NCBI GenBank assembly: GCA_963682025.1
Contig: OY821517.1
Span: 111,303,625-111,367,624 of the forward strand
Source: Cordilura impudica
Lineage: Eukaryota > Arthropoda > Insecta > Diptera > Scathophagidae
Reading direction: 5' to 3'
Length of the DNA stretch: 64,000 nt
Below the pieces are notes generated by a model that saw only the letters and a program-made list of their open reading frames with translations, made no database searches and was not told where the DNA came from. Positions 5,593-64,000 of this stretch are shown piece by piece. Within the stretch, counting starts at the first letter, position 1. Every line of letters starts with the position of its first letter. Position numbers and translations under genes: made by a program.

Positions 5593-6447
5593 AAATTTTA
5601 TTTTTTCTATTTGACTAAAAACTAAAATACTAATCAATGCATATGTGTCTATAAAAACAGAAACAAAACAAGTGTTTTATTACAAAGTATGAATGAATAA
5701 ATATGTAAACAAATTGATCCTCAACAACTTCGCACTCGCGCCGAATCTCCCCAAATGAAATTTCACGAAATTTTCCTCAGCCCACAATTACATACTTGCT
5801 CAAATGTTTAATAAGTGAAGAATGTCAGTAATATTATATTCGGTAAATCTATAATAATTTCTTCACTGTACTTCATTTTAAAATAGTAAGATTTTACTTT
5901 TTTCCTCAACTTTCACCATATCTTTTATCTTTAAGCCTTATAAATTCTTTTATTTGATAATGTCAAAGGCACTTCACTTCTAAGTATCAAAAGTATGAAA
6001 AGTATGAAAAGCGCAAAAAACATAGAAATGCGAAAAATCTACCAATTGATAATTATGTTTTTGATATTGACGATGATTTCGATGTTATTGAAAAGTTCTT
6101 ACTAGAAAATATGTTGTTACATACTTGTTAAAATTCTTTAGAGATTTTTTATACAAAAATGTTTTCAATTGGAAAAATTTAACATAACTCTATATTCAGT
6201 TGCTGTTATGCAAACTTAGGTATTCTGGTGTATTGTAGTTTTGTATGTATTTATATTTTCAAATTAAATAGTAATGTAACTATGTGTGTGGAGTGTCCTG
6301 TTTTTAAGATAATTTTAATTTATGATTTATATGTACAATTTTTTCCTATTTATACAATAATCAGAGACAAAATAAATGTTGTATCTAAATTGTAAAATTA
6401 GCACAAAAGAGAAACCGCATGATTATGTCGCTTATTGTTTATTTTTG
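5593..6447. other. AT-rich stretch, partly the continuation of the split copia LTR
   Basis: The first couple of hundred bases should be the outer part of the LTR broken by the LINE, because they adjoin the second TSD copy. I see no LTR end, gene or terminal repeat that can be fixed here. The rest is unremarkable AT-rich sequence. Confidence 0.35.
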
Positions 6448-7242
6448 TACCCTATACCACTATGTGGTTTGGGTATAATGACTTTGTGCTGCTGTTTGTT
6501 ACTACCAAAAATATTTGACCTAGACCCATCTTTTATTATACCGATCAAATCAGAATCACTATCTGATTCGATTCAACGATGTCCGTCCGTCCGTCCGTCC
6601 GTCCGTCTGTGTGTCCATGTAAACCTTGTAATCAAACTGCATGTCGCAAATATGAATATATTTTGATAATATTTGGTATATAAGCTTTTATTGATCATAG
6701 GATGAACTCTGTTGAAATTGGTGAGAATCGGTCGATGTTCACACCTAGCCCCCATACAAATGACCCCTATGAAATCGACTTAAATTGCCATAAGATACAA
6801 ATTATCATATAAATCTTATTCAAATTGGGTTTGTATGTGTTTATTACATCCATTAATCAGTAGTACAAAAATGATCTCTATGGGACAACTCTTAGTCATA
6901 TGCCCCATATAGAGCTGCTTCCTGATCTTCACTTAATTCTATCAAAAAACAAAAATATAATATAATGCACAATTTGGTTTGTATATATTTTTGCAAAATA
7001 CAAGAGACCTTACCAAACATGGTCAGGATCGGTCCATTTTTGGGCCTTGTACCAATATAGATATAGCATCCGATATGAAATTTTTCATAACTGCAGCCAA
7101 AAAAATTAAGAAAAATCCCACTCAAATTTGGTTAACGCTTATTTTCTATATCCAGTTAGTTAGGTCTGAGAGATAGGGTCTCTAAACGGATGTATAGGGT
7201 ATCATATAGTCGGTTTAGACCGACTATAATTTTCTTACTTGT
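6448..7242 (+). mobile_element. mini-me/DINE-type repeat, full-length copy
   Basis: Reference copy for the most abundant family in the window. It begins TACCCTATACCACTATGTGG, has a (GTCC)n tract at about 6581-6606 followed by TGTGTGTCCATGTAAACC, then several conserved blocks, and ends with the palindrome GTCGGTTTAGACCGAC followed by TATAATTTTCTTACTTGT. The sequence TACCCTATACCA near the left end recurs inverted near the right end in most copies, that is, subterminal inverted repeats. The (GTCY)n tract and organisation match what is known of dipteran mini-me/DINE elements, non-autonomous relatives of Helentrons. No coding capacity. Assignment to that family is by recognition, not search. Confidence 0.75.
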
Positions 7243-7435
7243 TTAATTAAAGGTTTTAAGTATTGAATGCAAAACGTTATATTACTTTGTTTTATCGACG
7301 TTAAAAAACAATTATTTCGCTCAATAATAGTGCTTTGGCACATTCGTTGCCTACCTGTTTGCGTAGCACTTCAGTGACGGAATTTTTATTTGCACGCGAA
7401 TATCTTAATGATCCCTCGCTTGATCTGACTGCACC

Positions 7436-13565: not shown

Positions 13566-13755
13566 TAGTAATGTTGGGTAAGAAATATCATTGGCTCTAG
13601 GAAATATCGCCCAATGAAAAGTCGCCCAAAAATAAAACTGAAAAATGCCCCGAAAAAACTCTCCCATACAAAAATTTCTCAGATGAAAAACTAATAATGA
13701 CCCAATTTTTTCGGATATTTTTTGCTTCCTACTTTTTTTTCATTTTTCAGTTTTA

Positions 13756-14530
13756 ACAAGTAAGAAAGTTATAGTCGGTCTAGACCGACTATACGATACC
13801 CTATACCATGTGTTTAGAGACCCTATCTCTAAGGACAAACTAACTGGATGTAGAAAATAAGCATAAACCAAATTTGAGCGGGATTTTTATCAATTTTTTT
13901 GGCTGCAGATATGAAAAAGTTCATATCGGAAGCTATATCTATAGGCCCAAAAATGGACCGATCCTGATCATGTTTGGTAAAGTCTCTTGTATTTTGCAAA
14001 AATATATACAAACAAAATTTGAGAAGAATCAGTGCAATATTTTTGTTTTTTAATAGATTTAAGTGAAGATCGGGAAGCAGCTCTGTATGGAGTCAAAGGT
14101 ATCATTTTTGGACTACTCATTAATGGATGTAATGAACGCATACAAACCCAATTTGAGTAAGATCTATATGACAATTTGGATCTTATGGCAATTTATGTCG
14201 ATTTCATAGGGGTAATTTGTATGGGGGCTAGGTCTGAACATGGACCGATTCTCACCAATTTCAATAGCGTTCATCCCATGGCCGATAAAAGCTTATATGC
14301 CAAATTTCATCAAAATATGTTAATATTGCGACCTGCAGTTTGATTACAAGCTTTACATGGACACACAGACGGACGGACGGACGGACGGACGGACATTGTT
14401 AAATCAACTCGGAAAGTAATTCTGATTCGATCGTTATAATTAAAGATGGGTCTAGGTCAAATATTTTTGGTTGTTACAAACAGCAGCACAAAGTCATTAT
14501 ACCCAAACCACATAGTGGTATAGGGTATAA
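13756..14530 (-). mobile_element. DINE-type repeat, full-length, reverse orientation
   Basis: Begins with ACAAGTAAGAAAGTTATAG and the palindrome GTCGGTCTAGACCGAC, contains (GGAC)n at about 14370-14395, and ends CACATAGTGGTATAGGGTAT. It belongs to a sub-family sharing a private 'gtcaaagg.atcatttttgg' block with the copy at 32073-32852. Confidence 0.75.
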
Positions 14531-14556
14531 AAATGACACACAAATCAAAAATGAAC

Positions 14557-19992: not shown

Positions 19993-20680
19993 TCATTATA
20001 TATATCACTATGTGGTTTGCGTATAATGACTTTGAGCTGCTGTTTGTAAGTACCAAAAATATCTGACCATCTATTATTATACTTTTCCACTCAGAATAAC
20101 TTTCTGGGTCGATTTAGCGATGTACGTTCATCCGTCCGTCTGCCCGTCTGTGTGTCCATGTAAAACTTATAATCAAACTACAAGAATATATTTGATGATA
20201 TTTAGTATATAAGCTTCTACCAGCCATAGCATGAACGCTATTGAAATTAGTGAAACTCGATTCATGTTCAGACCTAGTCCCCATACAAATGACCCCTATG
20301 AAATAGACATGAAGTGCCATAAGATCCAAATTATCATATAGATCTCAGTCAAATTGAGTTTGTATCCGTTTATTATATCCATTAATCAGTAGTCCAAAAG
20401 TAATCTCTTTAGGACAATTCTTAGTCGTATGCTCCATATAGAGCTGCTTGCAGATCTTCACTAAAATCTATCAAAAAACGAAAATATTGCACAGATTTTT
20501 CGCAAATTTGGTTTGTATACATTTTTTTCAAAATATAAGTGACTTTAGCAAATATGGTCAGGACCGGTCCATTTTTCGACCTAGTACCCACATAAATATG
20601 GGCAGCCGATTTGAACTTTTTCATATCTGCAGCCAAAAAAAATAATAACAACGCCTCGACTATAATTTCCTTACTTGTTT
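19993..20680 (+). mobile_element. DINE-type repeat, slightly shortened
   Basis: Forward copy with a short (GTCC) region around 20130. The terminal palindrome is reduced to 'cctcgactataatttcc'. It lies head to tail with the next copy. Confidence 0.7.
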
Positions 20681-27379: not shown

Positions 27380-29510
27380 CAGCAATAGCAGTCGCAAATA
27401 AAAATATTCGGAAAAATCTGGAGAACTTCAGTTATAAAAAACTGGCCGAGAGTATTTTAGAAACAAGAACCAGAAAGATGTTCTTAGTTACGTAAAAATA
27501 AAATTTAACTTAAGTTCATGTAGCACCCAAAATCCAAGAGCAATTATCTAGTTTCGTCAAGCAGTTAGCTACAAAGAAGTTATCTACAGTAAACAAAATT
27601 TTTGTATAAAAAGTGCAAGCTAGTTAGAAGGCCCATTTTTGTCGTTGCAGAAACAGCAAAGCAAGATAAGGCGTAAAGACCACGTAAATGATTGGACAAC
27701 TGCAGTTGTAGAGCCAAGAGGCAGAAACTTAAAGATATCAACGATCACATTTTGTGTACAGATATAAAAGAACCTTTCTTACATCAATTACGATCACAGA
27801 AGCAATTAACTAAAGTGGATATCATTGAAAACTGTGTTAAAGATAGTCCAGTGAGAAAAAAAAAGTATTCTTTAAAGTGTACCAACTCCAAGCGATGCAA
27901 AACAGTTCACAAATGAGGAGGCATTAGCATTATTTCTGAATTTTATTTTAACAAAACAGCAATATACTCAGCTCAGATTGCGTGCGATTGAAAAAGGATT
28001 AATTATGTATCCAGGATATTATCACAAACCCGCTGCTAAAGTGAACTGTTTGCCATCAAATGGCACGTTTAAAATCACAACAATTTCGCCCGAAAGCTTG
28101 CCATAATCAATAAAAGCAAATGAGTTAAAGAAATATGGAAACACAAAGCTGATTCCATTTCGTAAATGGGGATGTGATGGTTCTTCAGGACAAAAATAAT
28201 ACAAACAAAAAATATGTGAAAATATCTCGGAAGATATGTTAAGATATGTTCATGGTATCATTTGTACCATTGCGATTGAAAAAGATTTTGGAAGATTCAG
28301 AGCCTTCGGCTAGTACAATAAAAACAATAGATATTTGATAAAATGAGACACCATATTTTACGAAATACTGCAGGCCAATCAAATTAGAATTCAAGGCCCA
28401 AATTTCATCACAACAGCCATTACAATTACATTTAGATGGGCAGCAAATTCAGCTACCAGTTAATGCTGAAAATGATATGTGGAAAAGTCGGCCAGGCTTT
28501 GACTAACACGAAGGCTGCAACCAGCTAAATTATATGCCAAGTAACATCAAGCAAATTAAGCCCCGACAAAATCATTAGATAATACCTATCCACATGAATT
28601 TAGATTATCACTACTACATGCAAGAATACGATTTATGGAATACATACTAAAAATCAGTTATGATTTGGATTTCGGATCTTCAGGATCAATAAGAAACCAG
28701 TTAAAAGTAAGAAGTTAAAAAAGAAATATGTTCAAGACGAATATAGCAAATTTACATTGATTATAGACCAGCCAAAACAAGGGTCGGGTAATACAAATGA
28801 TGGCAATGCACCAAGAAGATTCTTTTCAGATCCAGAAACAGCATCTGGAATAACAGGAGTGGATTTAAACCTTATTTTCAGATTCAAAGTAATCCTAGAA
28901 GTAATTGCGTGCAATGAAAAAATTGACTGTAGAAAATTTTGAGATTATGCTAAGGAAACTGCAAGGGTCGGGTAATACAAATGATGGCAATGCACCAAGA
29001 AGATTCTTTTCAGATCCAGAAACAGCATCTGAAATAACAGGAGTGGATTTAAACCTTATTTTCAGATTCGAAGTAATCCTAGAAGTAATTGCGTGCAATG
29101 AAAAAATTGACTGTAGAAAATTTTGAGATTATGCTAAGGAAACTGCAAAAATATATACAGCCAAGTACCCATGGAGAAATATGTCTACACCAATTCACAA
29201 AATCCTATATTATGTACAAGATGTCATTAAATATCATTTGGTGCCATTTGGAGATCTATCAGAGGAGGCACAAGAAAAAAGGAATAAGGAATACAGATTT
29301 TATAGAGAGCACAATACAAGAAAAATTTCATGAAATTCCACAAATGAAGATTTATTTAATATATTATTGGCAATGTCAGATCCGTTCATTTTCAGTATAC
29401 GAAATCAATGGAAAGTGGAACATCGGGATTTAGATGAAGAAGTCAAAAAACTACTAAAGAACAGAAATAACACAGAACAAAATATGGAATATTTGCAACC
29501 ATGAATCAAA
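27380..29510 (+). pseudogene. RAG1/Transib-like transposase, nearly full length, heavily mutated (copy B)
   Basis: The relic is read in several frames. An N-terminal segment (ENFSYKKLAESILETRTRKM, about 27418-27478) and a basic region (27690-27916) lead to KWGCDGSSGQ, whose Asp codon at 28176-28178 matches the first catalytic Asp of RAG1 (D600 in mouse). KILEDSEPSAST matches RAG1's 'KVFEEPKPNSE'. MICGKVGQAL (28472-28500) stands where the Transib copy at 58983 has MIDGKV, so the second catalytic Asp codon (28478-28480) has become Cys. LLHARIRFMEY, GSGNTNDGNAPRRFF (duplicated in tandem), TPIHKI and LSEEAQEKRNKEYRFYREHN follow, the last containing the Glu equivalent of E962. Many stops and frameshifts. 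No terminal repeats were found around it. Confidence 0.75.
28778..29145 (+). repeat. 184-bp tandem duplication inside the RAG1-like relic
   Basis: Two nearly identical copies (28778-28961 and 28962-29145) differ at only about two positions ('tctggaata'/'tctgaaata', 'gattcaaag'/'gattcgaag'). Each encodes the GSGNTNDGNAPRRFF to CRKF segment. Since 184 is not a multiple of three, the duplication shifts the frame. It is far younger than the decay of the surrounding gene. Confidence 0.9.
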
Positions 29511-30698: not shown

Positions 30699-32072
30699 TT
30701 TAGTGTAAAATTTTTTTTGAGTATAAACTTAAAAAACACATCCCATTACTTCAAAAAATGCTTGTAATTCGACATTGCTTATAATAGCATGCGATAGTGT
30801 CAATCATTCAATCTTATTGTCTAAACTTCATATATATGGTATAAATGGAGAATTATTTTTATTTTTTTAAAAGTTTTTTAATTAATAGAAAGCTTAAGGC
30901 AAAAATTGGCACATCATATTCTAGTTATGAAATAAATGCGTTCTCAGGTATTCCACGAGGTACTCATTTGGGCCCGTTACTATTTTTAATCTTTATTAAT
31001 GATTTGCCAAAGTGTCTAAAGTTTTGTAAACCTTTAATGTTTGTGCATGACTTGAAAGTTTTTGCCACTTTTTCAATCTAATCACATGCAACTATGATAG
31101 AAAATGATTTGATAGCACTGGATAATTGGTGTGTTTTAAACAAACTTGTTTCTAATATTGGAAAATGTTGTACTATTTCTTTAACACATTGTCATAATCC
31201 AATTGTATACAGTTACACTATTGGCGACGTTGTACTTAAAAGAGTTGTCGAGGTAAAGAATATTGGAGTTATTTTTGATGCTAAATTGCATTTTGGTAGA
31301 CACATTGATTATATTACTTCTAAAGCCTATCAATGTTAGGTTTTATTAGAAGGAACTCGTAGGACTTTAAGGACCCCATCACTCTGAAGTCTTTACATGT
31401 TTCACTTATCAGAAGTAAATTAGAATTTTGTTCCCTAATATGGAACCCTTGTACAGCTACTCATTTAAATAGAATTGAAAAAATTCAAAACCTTTTCACG
31501 AAAATGCTTTTAAAAAAATAAATTGGGCTGATGAAAATAGACGTAAATTTCTAGGTCTTCAATCTTTAAAGATCGTAGATCATCTTTATACCCCGTACAA
31601 CTATGTGGTTGGGGTATTATGACTTTGTGCTGCTGTTTGTAACTACCAAAAATATTTGACCTTGACCCATCTTTAATTATACCGATCGACTCAGAATCAC
31701 TTTCTGAGCCGACTTAGCAATGTCCATCCGTCCATCTGAGTGTCCTCGTAATGAAACTACAAGTCGCAAATATGAATATATATTGATGAAATTTGGTATA
31801 TAAGCTTCCATCAGCCATAGGATAAAATCTGTTAAAATTGGTGAAATTCGGTCCATATTCAGACCTAGCCCACATACAAATGACCCCTATGAAACCGACA
31901 TGAAGTGCCATAAGATCCAAATTATAATATAGATCTCAGTTAAATTGGGTTTGCATGTGTTTATTATATCCATTAATCAGTAGTCACAAAATATTACCTA
32001 TAGCACAATTCTTAGTCATAGGTCCCATATAAGCTGCTACCCGATCTTCACTTAAATCTATGAAAAAACAAA

Positions 32073-32852
32073 CAAGTAAGAAAATTATAGTCGGTCTAGA
32101 CCGACTATACGATACCCTATACCATGCGTTTAGAAACCCTATCTCTTAGGCCCAACTAACTGGACATTGAAAATAAGGAAAAACCAAATTTGAGTGGGAT
32201 TTTTATTAATTTTTTGGCTGCAGATATGAAAAAGTTCATATCGGATGCTATATCTATAAAGGGACTAGGTCCAAGAATGGACCGATCCTGATCATGTTTG
32301 GTAAAGTCTCTTGTATTTTGCAAAAATATATACGAACAAAATTTGAGAAGAATCAGTGCAATATTTTTGTTTTTTAATAGATTTAAGTGAAGATCGGGAA
32401 GCAGCTCTATATGGGGTCAAAGGGATCATTTTTGGACTACTCATTAGCGGATGTAATGAACGCATACAAACCCAATTTGAGTAAGATCTATATGACAATT
32501 TGGATCTTATGGCAATTTATGTCGATTTCATATGGGTAATTTGTATGGGGGCTATGTCTGAACATGGACCGATTCTCACCAATTTCAACAGCGTTCATCC
32601 CATGGCCGATAAAAGCTTATATACCAAACTTCATCAAAATATATTCATATTTGCGACCTGCAGTTTGATTACAAGGTTTACATGGACACACAGACGGACG
32701 GACGGACGGACGGACGGACATTGTTAAATCAACTCAGAAAGTGATTCTGATTCGATCGGTATAATTAAAGATGGGTCTAGGTCAAATATTTTTGGTTGTT
32801 ACAAACAACAGCACAAAGTCATTATACCCAAACCACATAGTGGTATAGGGTA
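32073..32852 (-). mobile_element. DINE-type repeat inserted in the 31588-33062 copy
   Basis: Complete reverse copy: palindrome at 32080-32108, (GGAC)n at about 32692-32720, and CATAGTGGTATAGGGTATAC at the right. Very close to the copy at 13756-14530. Confidence 0.75.
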
Positions 32853-33010
32853 TACAAAATTGCACAGACATTTTTCAAATTTGGTTTGTATATATTTTTT
32901 CAAAATAAAAGTGACTCTGCCAAATATGGTCAAGATCGGTTCATTTTTCGACCTAGTCCCCATATAAATATAGCACCCGATATGAACTTTTTCATATTTG
33001 CAGCAAAAAA

Positions 33011-54344: not shown

Positions 54345-55653
54345 AAATCTCCATTAAAAGGCTTTTAACCTGGCTGTATGAATTCGCAACATTTAAAATC
54401 TTCGAAAAAGCCCATACATCTACTGACTGAACCATAAGAAGACCAGGAAAATCTTTGGAAGAGTGTTCGTCGTACACAAAAAAATGGAAAGTTCAGGATG
54501 TTATAGAAGCAATATCTACCGCTCATCTGTCATAAGCGTTATCCATAAAAATACACGAAAGACCAAGAAAAGTTCTGATTTTACAAAAGTAGTAGCGATC
54601 GCAAGCCCTTTGCGATTGCACAGGATCGAAGAGAGTATTCCAATGCCAGCAAATGCTTTACCCACAAAGTATAGCATAGAAGAAGCTTTGGCGTTGTTTA
54701 TGGACTTGGGATTGTCAAAGGAATGATGAATCATCTGGTCAAAGTGCTTACAAACAAACAAATGACACAACTATTACAGATGCAAATATGTTTATGGCTC
54801 CCGTAGTTCCTTTACGACTGAGAATTGAAATCTCTGAGCATTGATAAAATCCTCGTCCATCATCAGTTCTTTTTTACGTCCAAAGCCTTCTGTTCTTGAA
54901 ATGACGAAAGGAAAAACTGTTCTGATTGATTATGAATTTTTCTTACAATGATTGATGGCAGTCTTAAATGTAATAACAGATACCTCGTCAACTTTGAAGT
55001 GTGCTTGCAAAAACTCACAGAAAGACTTTCAAAACATTGATGATTCAAGTGATGAGCAAAATTATGAGTATGGAATTTCTCCGTTAAAGTTGAAAACACG
55101 AATATTCGTCGTCAGAAATAAAACACATATGTGTATATGAAAATGCACACAATCAGTGCGTCGAACGAAATACGTAGTACGTAACGAACTCTGCGATAGG
55201 TTTATTTCTATTTCTAATGCCGACGAACGACGAATAAATTCGTGTAAAAAGACCGTATTTTATTTTAGTTTTTCAAATGTTTTAGTAAATAAAGTAATTT
55301 TTATCTTTATGAATTATTTTATATATTATTTATACCTTATAAGATAAATAAAATATATTTTTAACTATATAAATTTCTTTTACATAGTATTTTGTTAATT
55401 TTTATTCTTTTTCGCTTAGTGCTTCTTTTTTTTTTTAAATATGGTCACACTATCAGCAACAACATGTAAACAAAAATGACATAAAATTAATTTATGAATG
55501 AAAATTTATGTAATTTTTTCAGAATTAAAAAATTAAACGCTGCCGTACAAAAATTAAGGCTTTTACCATCGTGAACATGATGTTTACAATTATAATAACT
55601 CGTACCAAGTTAAAAATTCTTTTATTCATATTTTTCCAATATTTATTTATATA

Positions 55654-56842
55654 CATTAGGGTTATGACTCTTTTATTTTTTTTTTTTTTTCTTTAAATAT
55701 CAAATTTTACATGCCCTAGCCAAAAAGTCTATTAAAAAATATTAAGAAACGCAATTTTACTTCTTCGCTGCTCTCAAAAAAGTTTCCGCACCAAACGCGT
55801 TGAAATTTGGTCTATATTGTTCTATTTGATTTAAAACATTTCTTCTACGTTTTAAAGACCACTGTGTATTTTAGGTGCGATGCCCCGAATGATTTCAAAT
55901 TTTCACCACTTATAACACATTTTGTTGCAATTCTAGCAAAATATATTTTTTTCGACAGTCGAGATATTTTCCGAGTTATGGACCTCCAAAGTTTGGACAT
56001 TGACTTATATATAACTTTTTAGTATCGGAATTGATTAATATATACATCATTTTGAAGTTCACATGAGTGCCTTTTATGTGATATTTTTAAATTTGAAATC
56101 CAAAACTTGTCATTATCTCATAAAACGATCTCTGCAATGTTGATATCTACAACAACTGAATATAAAAAAATTTAGATCCACTAGCTTCATTTCGATGCTC
56201 GGTGGAATTCTAGAAAAATTCTGGCAATATTAGCATATTGCTGACTTTAGTATTCATAAATTCTTTTAATATATAAGATAAATAATTATACCTCGTATTA
56301 AAATCTACATTGTTTAAATAATTTTTTTTACTATGTATACATATACCTAAAACCTCGATCTGCGTCGATAATTGGGACCCAAAAAAGACGACGCAAAACG
56401 AAACGACGCAAATTGAAATTAATTTTCCTATACATAAATATTTTGTTAATTAGTACTAAAATAAAACATTTACTTGCATTCCTACAGAATTAAATGGGAA
56501 ATCCCCTTTATATAAAATTTAAGCAACGCAGATAGAAAATTTTACGATGCAAATAAAAATTTTAACGACGCGACTCTGAAATCACGAAAATTCAAGAACG
56601 ACGCAACTTCGAAAACGATGCAATCGAAACGACGCAAATCGAGTTTTTAGTGTATTAAATTAATAAAAAATATAAAAATAAAAATAAAAAAAAATTCAGT
56701 GAGTTTTTTGAAATTGCATTTGGTGCGGAAGGTTTTTCCGGCAAAATGACCTGCAAACACGATTTTTATTATTAGTTTAGTATTGCCTATCACGTTGTGA
56801 TGGGTTAAAATTTTGTAAAAAATTATTCATAACCCTAATGTA
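55654..56842. mobile_element. nested inverted-repeat DNA element with TA flanks
   Basis: Left end CATTAGGGTTATGA preceded by TA, right end TCATAACCCTAATG followed by TA. The arms reach at least 140 bp, since TTTCCGCACCAAACGCG (about 55782-55798) is matched inversely by GCATTTGGTGCGGAAGG (about 56716-56732). No transposase visible. Probably Tc1/mariner superfamily by TA duplication. Confidence 0.55.
56346..56652. mobile_element. pogo/Tigger-like MITE
   Basis: Left CCTAAAACCTCGATCTGCGT, right CAAATCGAGTTTTTAGTG (inverse), flanked by TA (56344-56345 and 56653-56654). The 'CTCGATTTGCG' terminus is of the type seen in pogo/Tigger elements. The interior repeats 'cgacgcaa' many times. Confidence 0.6.
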
Positions 56843-57342
56843 CATATTATAAATTAAAAACAATTTCAAATGACGTTACTGCTGTTATATGAATTCGTCG
56901 TAATTGTATTTCATTCGACGAATTTACGCAACGAATTGTTGCCGACAAATTCATCGAGCTGTGCGAAATTCATCATTCGTTCCAGTTGTGTTTCAACCTT
57001 AAATACCAGAATTAGGTGCATGGAGTTCATTTTAAAACTAGCGTATACAATTTCGCGAGATGGGGAATATTTTGATAAGAACGCAACACCAAAAGGAAAG
57101 CTATCTGCTCGAGAAAAAATTATACAAAATGAATTTCTTAAGAAGCTTGGACTGAAATTAAACTGGCCAAAGCAGGGTTATGGAAATAATAACAATGCTA
57201 ATATGTCCATATCATTTTTTGAAAATGATGAGGTAACAGCCCGAATAATTGGGGTCGACAATAATATTATGAAAGAGTCGAGAGTCGATTTGGCGATGTC
57301 CGTCCGTCCGTCTGTGTGTCCATGTAAACCTTGTAATCAAAC

Positions 57343-57347
57343 TACAG
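57343..57347. repeat. 5-bp target duplication TACAG, left
   Basis: Identical to 61806-61810 and part of the DINE sequence 'aaactacaggtcgcaaat'. Confidence 0.85.
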
Positions 57348-58857
57348 CACAGTGGTTCAAAAGCAAAAAAAAGTGGTAATAAGTCTGGAACTTCTAAACT
57401 GTTGGTTGGATTGGAATAGTATATTCTAGGCGATTGTAGTCAAGGATATAGGCTTTCAAAATCTTTATCTTCGAGATACCCTGTTGTAACACAGGGTGAA
57501 CTACAGGATGCCAAAGTCGACCACCTCGGGGTGGAAAATGCTTTCAAAGCTTGTAACTTTTATAAATATGAAGTGATTTTTACGTTTTTTAAAGTTTTCC
57601 AATAACCATTAAATTATTAACAAAAAACAAGCTTATACTACCTAGTTATCGCTTATGGTTTAAAAAATATTTGATTTTAAAAATCAACATTTGAACTTTT
57701 CACCAAATTCTTTCTTGGTTTTTCGCAAATAAAATTTTTATTAAATTAGACAAAAAAAATCTAAAAATATGTGGCGATAGCCAGTACTTTTGAAAAAAAT
57801 ACGTTGAAGTATTTTTTGAATTATTTCAAACTTTTTAGTGAGCACAAAATCTTAAAGTTGACTTTTTGAATCAGGTTCTAAAAATTGCAAATTTTTGCCA
57901 AAAAATACCCTTCATTCTTTCACTTTTTTCTCACAACCTTGGTAAAACATGTATATATTTTTCTACATATTTTAAAAGAATATGCTTCAAGAATGGTTGT
58001 AAGTGAAATTTTTAATATTTTTGGACATGCACCCTACGTCCAGCATTGGACGAAATTGGGCAATTTAAAAAAAAAAAACTAAGTTTTAAACGTAAACGAT
58101 TTCTTCAAATATTTCACCACAGTATTAAAGCTCCAAATACTTTTATTTATTTGCCGCAATAAAATTCACCGCCATTACATAAACGTGGTCAGGAGGCCTT
58201 AAATGGTGAAAAAAGTCAAATTTTCATACGAATTTTTTTTGTTAACATAAAAAACATATTAACATTAGCTATTTTTATACTTTGGTTATTGATTCGGAAC
58301 GGCATTTAAATTATCTAAAACACTTCACAAAATCGTTTTGATAACGTTAATAGTTTTTGAGATATTTATATTCAAATTTCAGAAAAAAATATAGAAAAAC
58401 TATGGTTTTTCGTTTTTTTTGGTAAAGTGTTCCCGAAATTTTTGAATTTTACTTATTGTTATATACATTGTTAAAGAAGACATATGTATCTATTCAACGA
58501 TATATAACGTGTCTATCAAATATATTGCAACATGCTGAAATAATGACCCCAAACCACACTCCACAGGCAAAAATTTAGCTATTTCTCTATTTGTTCATAT
58601 AAATGGTCATTTACATAGTGAATGACATATTTTTTTATTGTTTTTTGGTAAAGGGTTGCACACGTTTTTATTACTTCAAATAATTTTATATATCTTTTCA
58701 AAGAAGGTATAATTATAAGTTAATGGTGTATGAAATATTAACCTAATGAGTTTCGGCTGATCATAAAATTGCCCGAAACTCTGATACCTATTGCAAAATA
58801 TCTGTAATTCACAATACCTTTTTATGCAAAAAAAAACAGGTAAAAGCCAAATGCTTA
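57348..58857 (+). repeat. left terminal inverted repeat of the Transib element
   Basis: About 1510 bp, matched inversely by 60309-61805. It runs from CACAGTG to 'caggtaaaagccaaatgct' at 58837-58855. In the outer 105 bp I count about five mismatches between arms. Its open frames are mirrored in the other arm and look like chance. Confidence 0.88.
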
Positions 58858-58982
58858 GATTCACTAAAACAAAATGTAAGTACTGGTTGAAGTACCTGCT
58901 CGATATATTACCTTTCAAATAGTTTTTTCAGTATATAACCATGAGTTTCTTGTTTATTAAGATCACTTACGTATAATCTATC
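58858..58982 (+). promoter_or_regulatory. short unique leader between the left inverted repeat and the transposase ATG
   Basis: Only about 125 bp of unique sequence separate the inner edge of the left arm from the ATG, so any promoter of the coding region must lie here or in the arm. I see no clear TATA or initiator motif. Confidence 0.25.
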
Positions 58983-60200
58983 ATGGAAGTTACATTAAAG
59001 TATTATTCACTTTGCAAAGTTATTTGGGAAAGTCCTTCCGATTCTACTATTCATTCATCACGTTCGGAAAAAGTCTCGAAATTATTTTATACAATTAACA
59101 ACACTTACGGTTTAAATGTGAGATCTGAAGATGTTGAAAATTTTTACAAAGCTTACGAAAGAAGATTTAGCCAATACACAAAGGAAGATAAAATTACAAC
59201 ACAAAGCTTAGTGAGTTCAATAAATCAGGAAATTTCGACATTGTCTCCAGTTTTTGTGGAAATATCTGGAAGTGTCATTAAAGTGTTATTTCAACCACTT
59301 TTTACAATGATTGATGGGAAAGTAGCCAATGCCGTTACAGATATAACATCTACTTGGAAATGTAATATTTGTGGAAAGAAAAGTTCAGAATTTCATAACA
59401 GTTGTGATGAAATTCCTATTAACGAAAATGCTTTAAAATTTGGAATATCACCACTTCATGCAAGAATACGATTTATGGAATATTGCTTGCATCTCGCATA
59501 TGATCTAACATACCGGCAAATTCCAGAACAAGAGAATATACCAGTTAAAAATAATACTGATCTACACGCCATACGAAAAACTGAGAAGAAAAGAATTCAG
59601 GATGAATTTAAAATGCAACTTGGTCTAATTATCGATAAGCCTCTTTATGGCTATGGAAGTTCAAATGATGGTAATACAGCAAGACGTTTCTTTGAAGATC
59701 CCGAAACTACTTCTTTGATTACTGGCATTGACACGGCTTTAATCGCACGGTTTAAAGTAATATTAGCTGTCATTGATAGTAAACAACAAATTAATGCGGA
59801 GAAATTGAAAATATATGCTAGTGGAACTAAGGAATTAATAATGAACTTATATCCTTGGAGGCCAATGACACCAACTGTACACAAAGTATTAGCTCATGAG
59901 AAAGAAATAATACAAAATAGCATCCGGCCCTTGTGAGAACTGACTGAAGAAGCACAAGAAGCTAGAAACAGAGATGTCAAACACTTTAGACTTTTTAATA
60001 CAAGAAAATGTAGCAAAGAAGCCCAAAATTCCGATTTAATGGAATATTTATTGATATCATCAGATCCAGTAATATACTCCATAAGAACAAAATGGTTACC
60101 AAAAATAAGTCTTGAAATAGAAAATGATGATTCCGAAGCTATGGATATAAAACATCTTTTATCTTTTGATATTTCTGATTGTTTTGTAGAAAATAACTAG
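58983..60200 (+). pseudogene. RAG1-core-like Transib transposase, N-terminally incomplete, one in-frame stop (copy D)
   Basis: Residues 1-317 are open from ATG 58983 to TGA 59934-59936, and the same frame continues to TAG 60198-60200. Motifs in order, compared by eye with mouse RAG1: KVIWESPSDST (RAG1 KVFEEPKPNSE), TMIDGKV with Asp111 (second catalytic Asp, D708), Cys127 and Cys130 in CNIC (zinc ligands C727/C730), SPLHARIRFMEY, GYGSSNDGNTARRFF (RAG1 MRMNGNFARKL), His300 and His305 in HKVLAH (zinc ligands H937/H942), then past the stop TEEAQEARNRD whose Glu at 59958-59960 fits E962. The first catalytic Asp (D600 region, KWGCDGSSGQ in copy B) lies upstream of this start and is absent; the left inverted repeat begins there instead. 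So it is a truncated, probably non-autonomous relative of a DDE recombinase. Confidence 0.85.
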
Positions 60201-60308
60201 TAAAAAAGCAGACAATTGTTATGTAATTTTAAGCCTATTATAAAACAAATAAAAAAATACTCATTAAAAAAAATTTAGTTATATTTTTTATTTAATAATG
60301 AAAATATC

Positions 60309-61805
60309 TTAGGCATTGGCTTTTTACCTGTTTTTTTTCGTATAAAATCAGCATCAAAGTTTCGGGCAATTTTATGATCAGTTGAAACTCATTAGGTAAA
60401 TATTTCATACACCATTAATTTATAATTATACCTTATTTGAAAAGATATATAAAATTATTTGAAGTAATAAAAAATTATGCAATCCTTTACCAAAAAACAG
60501 TAAAAAAATATGTCATTCACTATTGAAATGACCATTTATATGAACAAATAGAGAAATAGCTAAATTTTTGCCTGTGGAGTGTGGGTTGGGGTCATTATTT
60601 CAGCATGTTGCAATACATTTGATACACATGTTATATATCGTTGAATAGATAAATATGTCTTCTTTAACAATATATACAACGATAAGTAAAATTCAAAAAT
60701 TTCGGGAACACTTTACCAAAAAAACCAAAAAAATACGAAAAACCATAGTTTTTCTATATTTTTTTCTGAAATTTGAATATAAATATCTCAAAAACTATTA
60801 ACGTTATCAAAATGATTTTTTGAAGTGTTTTAGATAATTTAAATGCCGTTCTGAATCAATAACCAAGCTATAAAAATAGCTAATCTTAATATGTTTTTTA
60901 TGTTAACAAAATGAAAATTTGACTTTTTTCACCATTTAAGGCCTACTGACCACATTTATGTAACGGCGGTGAATTTTATTGCGGCAAATAAATAAAAATG
61001 TTTGGAGATTTAATACTGCTGTGAAATATTTGAAGAAATCGAGCGGATATTTTTGTATTTACGTTTAAAACTTATTTTTTTTTTTAAATTGCCCAATTTC
61101 GTCCAATGCTGGACGTAGGGTGCATGTCCAAAAATATTAAAAATTTCACTTACAACCATTCTTGAAGCATATTCTTTTAAAATATGTAGAAAAATATATA
61201 CATGTTTTACCAAGGTTGTGAGAAAAAAGTGAAAGAATGAAGGGTATTTTTTGGCAAAAATTTGCAATTTTTAGAACCTGATTCAAAAAGTCAACTTTAA
61301 GATTTTGTGCTCACTAAACAGTTTGAAATAATTCAAGAGATACTTCAACGTATTTTTTGAAAAAGTACTGGCTATCGCCACATATTTTTAGATTTTTTTT
61401 TATCTAATTTAATAAAAATTTTATTTGCGAAAAACCAAGAAAGAATTTGGTGAAAAGTTCAAATGTTGATTTTTAAAATCAAATATTTTTTAAACCATAA
61501 GCGATAACTAGGTAGTATACGCATGTTTTTTGTTACTAATTTAATGGTTATTGGAAGCATTTAAAAAACGTAAAAATCTCTTCATATTTATAAAAGTTAC
61601 AAGCTTTGAAAGCATTTTCAACCTCGAGGTGGTCGACTTTGGCACCCTGTTGTTCACCCTGTGTTGCAACAGGGTATCTCGAAAATAAATATTTTGAAAG
61701 CCTATATCTTTGACTACAATCGCCTAGACTATACTATTCCAATCCAACCAATAGTTTAGAAGTTCCGGACTTATTACCACTTTTTTTTGGTTTTGAACCA
61801 CTGTG
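60309..61805 (-). repeat. right terminal inverted repeat of the Transib element
   Basis: About 1497 bp. The inner edge 'aggcattggctttttacctg' (60311-60330) is the inverse of the left arm's inner edge. The arms differ by small indels, for example extra bases around 58775-58825 in the left arm. Confidence 0.88.
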
Positions 61806-61810
61806 TACAG
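61806..61810. repeat. 5-bp target duplication TACAG, right
   Basis: Second copy of the duplicated target directly after the right CACTGTG. Confidence 0.85.
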
Positions 61811-62402
61811 GTCGCAAATATTTTGCTGAAATTTGGTATATGAGCTTTTATCGGCCATAGAATGAACGCTGTTGAAACTGGTGAAATTCGGTCCATGGCC
61901 AGAGCTAACCCCCATACAAATTACCCCTACGAAACCGACATGAAGTGGCATAAGATCCAAATTATAATATAGATCTCTGTCAAATTGGGTTTGTATGTGT
62001 TTATTATATCCATTAATCAGTAGTCCAAAAATCAACCTTATAGCACAGTTCTTTGTCATAGTTCCCATATAAGCTGCTTCCCGATCTTCACTTAAATCTA
62101 TCAAAAAACAAAAATATTGCACAGATTTTTCTCAAATTTGGTTGGTATATATTTTTTCAAAATATAAGTGACTTAACGAAATATGGTCAAAATTGGTCAA
62201 TTTTTCAACCTAATCCCCATATAAATATAGCCCGATATGAACTTTTTCATATTTGCAGCAAAAAAATTAATAACAATGCCACTCAAATTTGGTTTATGCA
62301 TATTTTCTACATCGAATTAGTTGGACCGAAAGATAGGGTCTCTAAACCATGGTATAGGGTATCATATGGTCGGTCTAGACCGACTATAATTTTCTTACTT
62401 GT

Positions 62403-64000
62403 TTTTTTCTAGACTTTCGGATTTAGACAATATGTGTTGTTAAGTTATAAGTCCTTTGAGTGGTTAATTAATAAAATTTCATTGCGAAATTTGGAATTTT
62501 GTGAACATTGGGTGTTTTTTTTCATTAAAACAGTCGGGAAAATAGGTTCAAAAGTGGTCCGTTTTCATTAAAAATTTACAGTGTTTTTTGCATTTTTTTT
62601 GTAAATTTTTTAAATATAATACAGAAATTAGCAAATTTGACATCTTTAGTGGCATTTTAATCAAATTTTGAATTAGATTTGTACGGGGACTAGGAACCAA
62701 TGTAGAGCGACTTTAATGATTTTTTTATAGATATCATCACTGGCCTAATATATTCTTATGATTCAAATTTCATCGGAATAGAATAACAATTGCTACATTC
62801 AGTGGCATTAAAATCAATTTTTTAGGAAAATTTATGTGGGGAATAGGTCGATTCCAACAGATTTAAGTAGGGTTCATCTTTGGGTCAAAAACACTTTAAG
62901 TTCCAAATTTCAGCACATTACATTTATATTTGCAACATGTAAAAGTAGCACCAAATTAATACTGAACTTTGATAGGATATGTTGAAGCCCCCTGTGGACC
63001 TAGCGGCCTCAGCCAGCTTTCATTTTAAAGGCAAAGAAGTCGTCTTTCATTTCAAATTTGTGAAGTGTCTTAATTAGTTTAAAAGTTATGATTTTTGCAA
63101 CAAAAAATTCAAAGTGCCTCACTGTGAACTATGAGAAAATATTTGAGGGATTCCAATGAGAACATACCAAATAAAAAGTCCCTACCCGCAAAACAAATAT
63201 ACGAAAATGCTTCCAGTATGCCACCGTCCTTGACAGCAATGAACTGGGAGGGAATGTATTTAGATCATATGCTGTTAGCTTGTGGCCAGAAAAAAATAAG
63301 AGACTCTAAATCCGCGGAATAATACACACAATTTTGAGCACGGTGATAGCGGCTTGGAATGCTATGGCTTCAATTGGATTTGGAAATTTGAAAATGTCTA
63401 TGTTAAGAAGAACATGAACAAAGCTGATTATTTTTTATTTTGAAGTTCGATTTTCTATTTGTCTGTGATAATGATATAAGTACTCTACCTACATTTCAAA
63501 GAAGTGAATGTTATATAACCAAAAAAGTATTATCTCATGCACCCTTGAGCCCATATCTGAATCTAGTTAGTAATTTATTGATACATTATTGAAGAAATTT
63601 AACATTTCTAGCAAAGATATACTGAAATATTGGGAACAGACACATGTACTCTAATTTCTAAAGATTACACTAGATTCCTAGATACCAGAGAAGACAAGGG
63701 CGTGCACACAAAATATAATTTTTTTGTTATATTAATGTATTTTATATTTTTGGTTAAAGGTCTTGTTTTCCAATGAAAATTGGGTTATTTAAGTTGTTGT
63801 CCATTTTAAACAGTGTATTAAAACTAGCTTTTAATTCCATATATAATTAAATGTACCCCATTTTATTTCAGTTTAGTAAGTGGAGAACTTATTTTTGTTT
63901 GACTGTAAAATATTTGCTAATATTTAGTTCGTATATTGTTTAGTTACTTACAACGTTTTCTTCTTTCACACTTACTGATGATTCCGAAGTAGGTGCAGGA
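62403..64000. other. no recognisable gene
   Basis: Moderately AT-rich. A 63-residue frame at 63131-63322 (MRKYLRDSNENIPNKKSLPA) has no family resemblance I can name, although its composition is less AT-driven than chance frames nearby. 62640-62940 has a few DINE-like phrases ('aaatttcagcaca', 'atttgcaacatg') but too diffuse to call. Confidence 0.35.

Follow-up and report, generated by a model that had tools for sequence, protein, structure and literature searches.

Structure and boundaries of the element

A transposon copy of the Transib superfamily, 4458 bp long and internally deleted, lies at positions 57348-61805 of a 64,000-nucleotide stretch of the genome of the scathophagid fly Cordilura impudica (contig OY821517.1; the whole stretch is referred to as the window, and positions are counted from its first base). 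At 57348 the element opens with CACAGTGGTTCAAAAGC; when read as the reverse complement from 61805, its right end opens with CACAGTGGTTCAAAACC. Both termini, the right one read as its reverse complement, begin identically with CACAGTGGTTCAAAA. The outermost seven bases are CACAGTG, which is the consensus heptamer of V(D)J recombination signals, and each end is directly abutted by the 5-mer TACAG. The following features delimit the insertion:

57282-57342, unstranded: left piece of the host interspersed repeat broken by the insertion (alignment to sister repeats)
57343-57347, unstranded: left 5-bp target-site duplication, TACAG (same 5-mer at 61806-61810)
57348-61805, + strand: Transib copy (termini, duplication, and homologous copies throughout the genome)
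57348-57354, + strand: left terminal heptamer, CACAGTG
61799-61805, - strand: right terminal heptamer, CACAGTG (CACTGTG on the + strand)
61806-61810, unstranded: right 5-bp target-site duplication, TACAG (single in sister repeats, often as TGCAG)
61811-62407, unstranded: right piece of the host interspersed repeat (alignment to sister repeats)

The host repeat, about 0.79 kb in length and a putative DINE according to the preliminary description, has many copies in the window (e.g., 6444-7244, 13755-14531, and 32070-32857). When the two flanks of the transposon are joined, the resulting stretch can be aligned through the junction to 13 further copies of the repeat in the window, all of them free of a transposon insert. 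Eleven of these empty sites are 7-8 bases longer than the flanks of the window copy, the additional bases lying a few bp rightward of the insertion point; the remaining two (at 20134 and 22252) have a small deletion next to that point. Because TACAG abuts both ends and the sister repeats show the empty site, the element is real and the boundaries assigned in a preliminary description of the window are confirmed, together with the terminal heptamers, the flanking 5-mers, and the insertion into a multi-copy repeat that the same description had reported.

An abundant family in the Cordilura genome

The same ends are found throughout the genome, which was searched in full (1.486 Gb in 855 contigs). 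The 33-nt terminus CACAGTGGTTCAAAANCAAAAAAAAGTGGTAAT, with one position left free, occurs 378 times in forward and 377 times in reverse orientation (755 in total), and its reversed control in neither (0 + 0); a looser end pattern, set before the ends were known, yielded 123 + 127 occurrences against 49 + 55 for its control. A search with the first 203 bp of the element returned 1343 candidates, and all 40 that were scored matched at no less than 96%. These 40 matches represent the window copy and 32 other loci, 20 of which were examined; the loci were selected by their likeness to the left end of the window copy and are not a random sample.

Both ends are present in 19 of the 20 loci, and only one in L052. 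Identical 5-bp duplications flank 18 of the 19 two-ended copies, the exception being L056 (TGGCA/TGCCA). With the window copy included, CACAGTG stands at 39 of 41 ends; the left end of L048 reads TACAGTG and the right end of L053 CGCAGTG. The termini proposed for the window copy are thus those of its relatives elsewhere in the genome. The duplications (window copy and the 18 perfect cases, with L056 and L052 left out) have a G+C content of 62%, compared with 31% for the window, and, when they are read in gene orientation, 14 of the 19 have G at position 5 and 12 have C at position 4, which fits the G+C-rich target preference of Transib elements. Contig C1 has at least 30 pairs of exact ends that face each other (picked by eye among the places listed) at distances of 1030 to 7298 bp, a 12.1-kb pair being left out.

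Classification of the transposase

The space between the ends holds a remnant transposase gene (58983-60197, + strand; identified by homology to HzTransib) of 405 codons, counting a stop at codon 318, with a terminal TAG at 60198-60200. Its translation, with the internal stop read as X, matches the transposase chain of HzTransib (6pqn) with an E-value of 4.1e-58 (query residues 66-370 on chain residues 167-463) and amphioxus RAG1L with an E-value of 0.0087; no further match reached an E-value of 1. The 544-residue open frame of the longer copy L057 aligns with HzTransib residues 2-446 (E 1.5e-76), with RAG1L (E 1e-6), and with mouse RAG1 (E 0.07). A family profile was built from L057 and 33 relatives, taken from 120 listed among the 357 relatives that were found in 7997 scored candidates. 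It scored HzTransib at 602.8 bits, ProtoRAG RAG1L at 64.0 bits, and the RAG1 chains at 54.7 to 48.4 bits, with E-values of 4.6e-14 to 3.5e-12 for the RAG1 chains.

On account of these scores, and judged by them rather than by a tree with RAG1, the encoded protein classifies as a Transib transposase with a genuine but distant relationship to the RAG1 core. Both the Transib-type identity and the resemblance to the RAG1 core noted in the preliminary description are borne out, the latter as remote homology, and the profile search did not place the protein outside the RAG1/Transib group. A Pfam scan of the window gene and of L057 returned no family above the cut-off. The relative P0001 (73%; 680 aa) matches PF12940 (RAG1) below the cut-off (21.4 versus 25 bits); PF26100 is precomputed for many relatives, including P0001, but was not listed in our own Pfam scan of that protein. 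A relative from Stomoxys, with 47% identity over 76% of L057, carries the UniRef name V(D)J recombination-activating protein 1 RNase H domain-containing protein.

Deletion and in-frame stop in the gene

Comparison with longer copies and alignment of the catalytic motifs locate the following features within the gene:

59175/59176, + strand: deletion junction, where longer copies (L042, L045, L056, L057) have about 816-828 bp with the codon of the first catalytic Asp
59313-59315, + strand: codon of the second catalytic Asp (TMIDGK, aa 111), aligned with TGYDEK of RAG1
59934-59936, + strand: in-frame TGA stop ahead of the ELTEEAQEARN motif (reading of the frame)
59958-59960, + strand: codon of the catalytic Glu (EARN), past the stop; E515 in the alignment of family relatives, where it is invariant

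The lost segment codes for the region aligned to HzTransib residues ~2 to 166 and includes the motif KWGCDG, which in the longer copies aligns with KWGFDG of HzTransib and KESCDG of RAG1. In mouse RAG1, the aspartates of CDG and YDEK and the glutamate of GNES are residues 600, 708, and 962, and their mutual spacing in the printed mouse chain fits these numbers. All three acids are present in the L057 frame. Given the deletion, the motif alignments, and the TGA at 59934-59936, the window copy lacks the first Asp and has its Glu beyond the stop; the open product comprises 317 aa with only one of the three catalytic acids, and there is no complete catalytic triad (DDE) in one frame. The window copy is therefore intact at its ends only, and its transposase gene is broken. 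It had been described as complete, which is correct for the termini but not for the gene; the internal deletion, the in-frame stop, and the long inverted arms (see below) were absent from that description.

The same deletion junction is found in L044 and L046, which lie at other sites and have different duplications. A search with 111 bp around the junction returned 768 candidates; among the 40 that were scored, seven places (including the window) span the junction at 96-100%, and the other 33 cover only the left 56-57 bases. The seven places are distributed over five contigs (C1, C2, C3, C4, and C5), and an exact 26-mer of the junction occurs six times in the genome (control, 0). The presence of one junction at seven genomic places makes it very probable that the deleted form itself was moved in trans. 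Other copies have other breaks in common: L039, L040, L041, L050, L053, and L054 share those at element positions 1358 and 2584, with differing lengths of other sequence in between, and a break at element positions 1486-1487 and 1828 is common to L048, L051, and L058. These patterns are most simply read as the result of mobilization of several deleted subfamilies by a transposase made elsewhere.

The recurrence of the junction at seven places, together with the preservation of the reading frame across the deletion in the window copy and L046, could also fit selection on the short protein for itself, which a deleted subfamily might produce as, say, a repressor or a partner in dimers. This is highly improbable: a deletion keeps the frame by chance in one of three cases, the window copy has an in-frame stop, L044 is matched by tblastn only in two pieces, and the frame of L046 is broken at aa 251/252. 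Still less probable is that the window copy is a complete, autonomous Transib that encodes a functional transposase. Its two ends and its duplication are intact and most of the catalytic and zinc region can be read, but with about 820 bp gone, the first catalytic Asp among them, and the frame closed before the catalytic Glu, this explanation is, as far as sequence can tell, already refuted, barring an assembly error.

Long inverted arms

The two ends of the element are the tips of long inverted arms:

57348-58785, + strand: left inverted arm, 1438 bp (93.2% identity to the right arm, gaps counted), with a weaker match to about 58857
60353-61805, - strand: right inverted arm, 1453 bp (same alignment), with a weaker match to about 60310

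Beyond the main alignment of the arms, another 38 bp match at 84% identity. Most of the space between the arms is taken up by the remnant transposase gene, and Tandem Repeats Finder detected no tandem arrays inside the element. Long arms are present at both ends of all 19 two-ended copies, although nested inserts interrupt some of them and those of L055 are as short as about 630 bp. Short ends are the rule among described Transib elements, which might suggest that the arms are flanking duplications or foldback DNA captured once rather than parts of the transposon, but this is highly implausible for 19 copies that carry both arms at different sites, with the duplication directly bordering the arms. 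The inserts that interrupt certain arms were considered as an extra part of the transposon and rejected, as they are the host interspersed repeat.

The arms were compared over their first 1060 positions in 38 of 41 cases; the left arms of L047 and L054 and the right arm of L055 were dropped on account of nested inserts or shortness. The two arms of the same copy diverge by 2.0% on average (17 copies), whereas arms of different copies diverge by means of 3.6% (left-left), 3.5% (right-right), and 3.5% (left-right). With the first 203 positions excluded, the divergence within copies is 2.1%, compared with 3.9% for shuffled partners, and this value was reached in none of 10,000 shuffles. The lack of a left-specific or right-specific lineage of arms suggests that the arms of one copy were made alike at some stage, probably by conversion or copying between them.

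Proposed origin and mobilization of the window copy

The best explanation, to which we assign a probability of about 95%, is that the window element belongs to an abundant Transib family whose long inverted arms measure about 1.45 kb, and that this copy carries an internal deletion and is non-autonomous. A full-length transposase from other copies would recognize the CACAGTGG ends, excise the element by a nick-hairpin route like that of RAG, and insert it at target cuts staggered by 5 bp. That enzyme would have spread the deleted form in trans, and the window copy would have decayed in place after its insertion. Repeated conversion or copying from one arm to the other would have made the two arms of a copy similar.

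Possible sources of the enzyme were sought with P0001 as query. Among 40,695 candidate places, 65 gene copies were scored, and four of these are free of stops from residue 1 or 2 through residue 679. Each of the four has one end with an intact heptamer; the second end is changed in L061 and disrupted in L063, and in the last two copies the arm is broken by the host repeat, with the place on contig C3 also holding a piece of a second copy's gene.

A more far-reaching proposal, that the family is still mobile at high copy number, that its Foldback-like arms of 1.45 kb convert each other within a copy, and that several deleted subfamilies have been moved in trans, is tentative and in our estimate somewhat more likely wrong than right. 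If true, it would provide a natural system in which ends bearing precisely the V(D)J heptamer are processed by a relative of RAG1.

Several observations weigh against the explanation preferred here. In none of the four copies with a full-length open frame were both ends seen intact, so that a working source element is hypothetical, and transposition is deduced from a comparison of genomic copies. The junction could in principle have arisen in the copies that share it by separate deletions at one and the same site. A left arm has the right arm of its own copy as its nearest relative in only 10 of 17 copies, and homogenization is not visible in the window copy itself: its arms differ by 3.8%, which is the level of arms from different copies, and its own right arm is only the fifth nearest of 37 to its left arm. 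The window copy and L046 together have the highest divergence within a copy. The 3.8% between its arms suggests that the window copy is an old insertion.

Comparison with RAG signals and known transposons

A V(D)J signal consists of the heptamer and a ACAAAAACC-type nonamer at a distance of 12 or 23 bp, and one signal of each kind is required for a pair. The ends of the window copy match this nonamer in 4-5 of 9 bases at spacers of 12 and 23, and the best match (6 of 9) has equal spacers at both ends. When spacers of 0-39 were examined at the 41 ends of the family, a ACAAAAACC-like nonamer matched in 5-6 of 9 bases at spacer 12 and in 4-5 at spacer 23, with no 12/23 asymmetry. Because the match to the nonamer is poor and the spacers are alike at both ends, the second half of the recombination signal sequence (RSS) and a 12/23 arrangement are absent from the ends of this family. 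Some other Transib elements are said to have such an arrangement (excerpt of PMC8355894).

The identity of the RSS heptamer, the remote matches to RAG1L by the window gene and by L057, and the detection of RAG1 by the family profile could also be taken to indicate a RAG-like transposon of the ProtoRAG type, with a RAG1L-RAG2L pair, in the direct line to the V(D)J recombinase. This is extremely unlikely, because HzTransib outscores RAG1L more than ninefold in bits and a second long frame is missing from the window copy. No other frame of more than 100 aa exists inside the window element. L057 has 13 listed frames; besides the transposase, the nine that lie inside the element (at least 60 aa) had no Pfam match above the cut-off, and neither a kelch nor a PHD domain was found in them, three frames that overlap the ends being unscanned. 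There is no sign of a RAG2-like gene in the window copy or in the scanned frames of L057.

ProtoRAG and the other RAGL transposons resemble the window family in their heptamer-like ends, 5-bp duplications, and homologous transposase core, but differ from it by the pair of RAG1L and RAG2L, and the sequence similarity is far weaker. The Transib superfamily of flies and mosquitoes shares with the window family a single transposase gene, CAC-heptamer ends, and 5-bp duplications; the window family differs in its arms of about 1.45 kb. HzTransib of Helicoverpa zea (6pqn and related PDB entries) is similar in its homologous transposase, its 5-bp duplication, and its long terminal inverted repeats (TIRs), but it is another family in sequence, and the window copy differs in being deleted and broken. 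The original Hztransib measures 3518 bp and has the duplication GCTCG and long TIRs, according to an excerpt of the report (PMC1852546). A search of the open-licence literature did not retrieve Transib together with the phrase "long terminal inverted repeats", and an excerpt of PMC3212995 mentions an Anopheles Transib without an arm length.

Very long inverted arms are also found in Galileo and the Foldback elements of Drosophila. Galileo belongs to the P superfamily, as stated in an excerpt of PMC4168063, whereas the enzyme of the window family is of the Transib type. In the excerpted Table 2 of PMC2775673, the arms of Galileo copies 1 and 2 diverge by 0.2 and 0.7%, which is below most values between arms of different copies; like the window family, these copies have own arms that are more alike than most arms across copies. 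In copies 4 and 5, which lie at inversion breakpoints, the two arms are dissimilar (6.3 and 5.7%; same table), and such copies are explained there as chimeras from ectopic recombination (PMC2775673).

Transib elements with heptamer-like CAC ends and 5-bp duplications have already been described (excerpts of PMC8355894, PMC4411706, and PMC7204232), and the closer precursor of RAG is held to be a RAG1L-RAG2L transposon (excerpt of PMC7204232). The claim in the preliminary description that the element is direct evidence for the ancestry of the V(D)J recombinase is therefore overstated, and the picture of the origin of V(D)J recombination is unchanged. Since heptamer-ended Transib elements, 5-bp duplications, and long TIRs have all been reported before, the window family adds to a known superfamily and may already be named in Repbase. 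What is gained is a Transib family that is abundant, clearly bounded, and equipped with very long arms, in a superfamily related to RAG1. With its hundreds of exact ends, deletion derivatives, and few open transposase frames, it is suited to the study of how ends and arm length affect the movement of Transib elements.

Nested and neighboring elements

The host repeat has inserted into the Transib copies L045, L046, and L048 and into the arm stretches L067 and L068, and two of these insertions adjoin TTA- or TTTA-rich runs. In the window, the nesting is reversed, with the Transib copy inside the host repeat. Directly to the left of this host repeat, fragments of another, older Transib-like gene with 34-39% identity to the L057 protein are scattered over positions 54559-57298; the piece at 56963-57280 matches HzTransib residues 254-347 with an E-value of 2.1e-9. 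The host repeat and then the window element appear to lie beside or inside this relic. A third Transib-like relic at 27861-29357 consists of pieces with 32-62% identity to the L057 protein and has a short internal duplication and many stops; a search for its ends gave no convincing pair.

Other mobile elements accompany individual copies of the family. The frames on the - strand at both sides of L057 resemble those of long interspersed nuclear elements, judged by eye only, and the copy seems to have inserted into a retrotransposon without long terminal repeats. The frames beyond the one-ended copy L052 resemble, likewise only by eye, the gag-pol genes of a retroelement. A second transposon is nested in the Transib copy L047, where a 551-aa open frame on the - strand (L047:4696-6348) matches PF13843 (DDE_Tnp_1_7; E 4.4e-66), a piggyBac-type transposase family.

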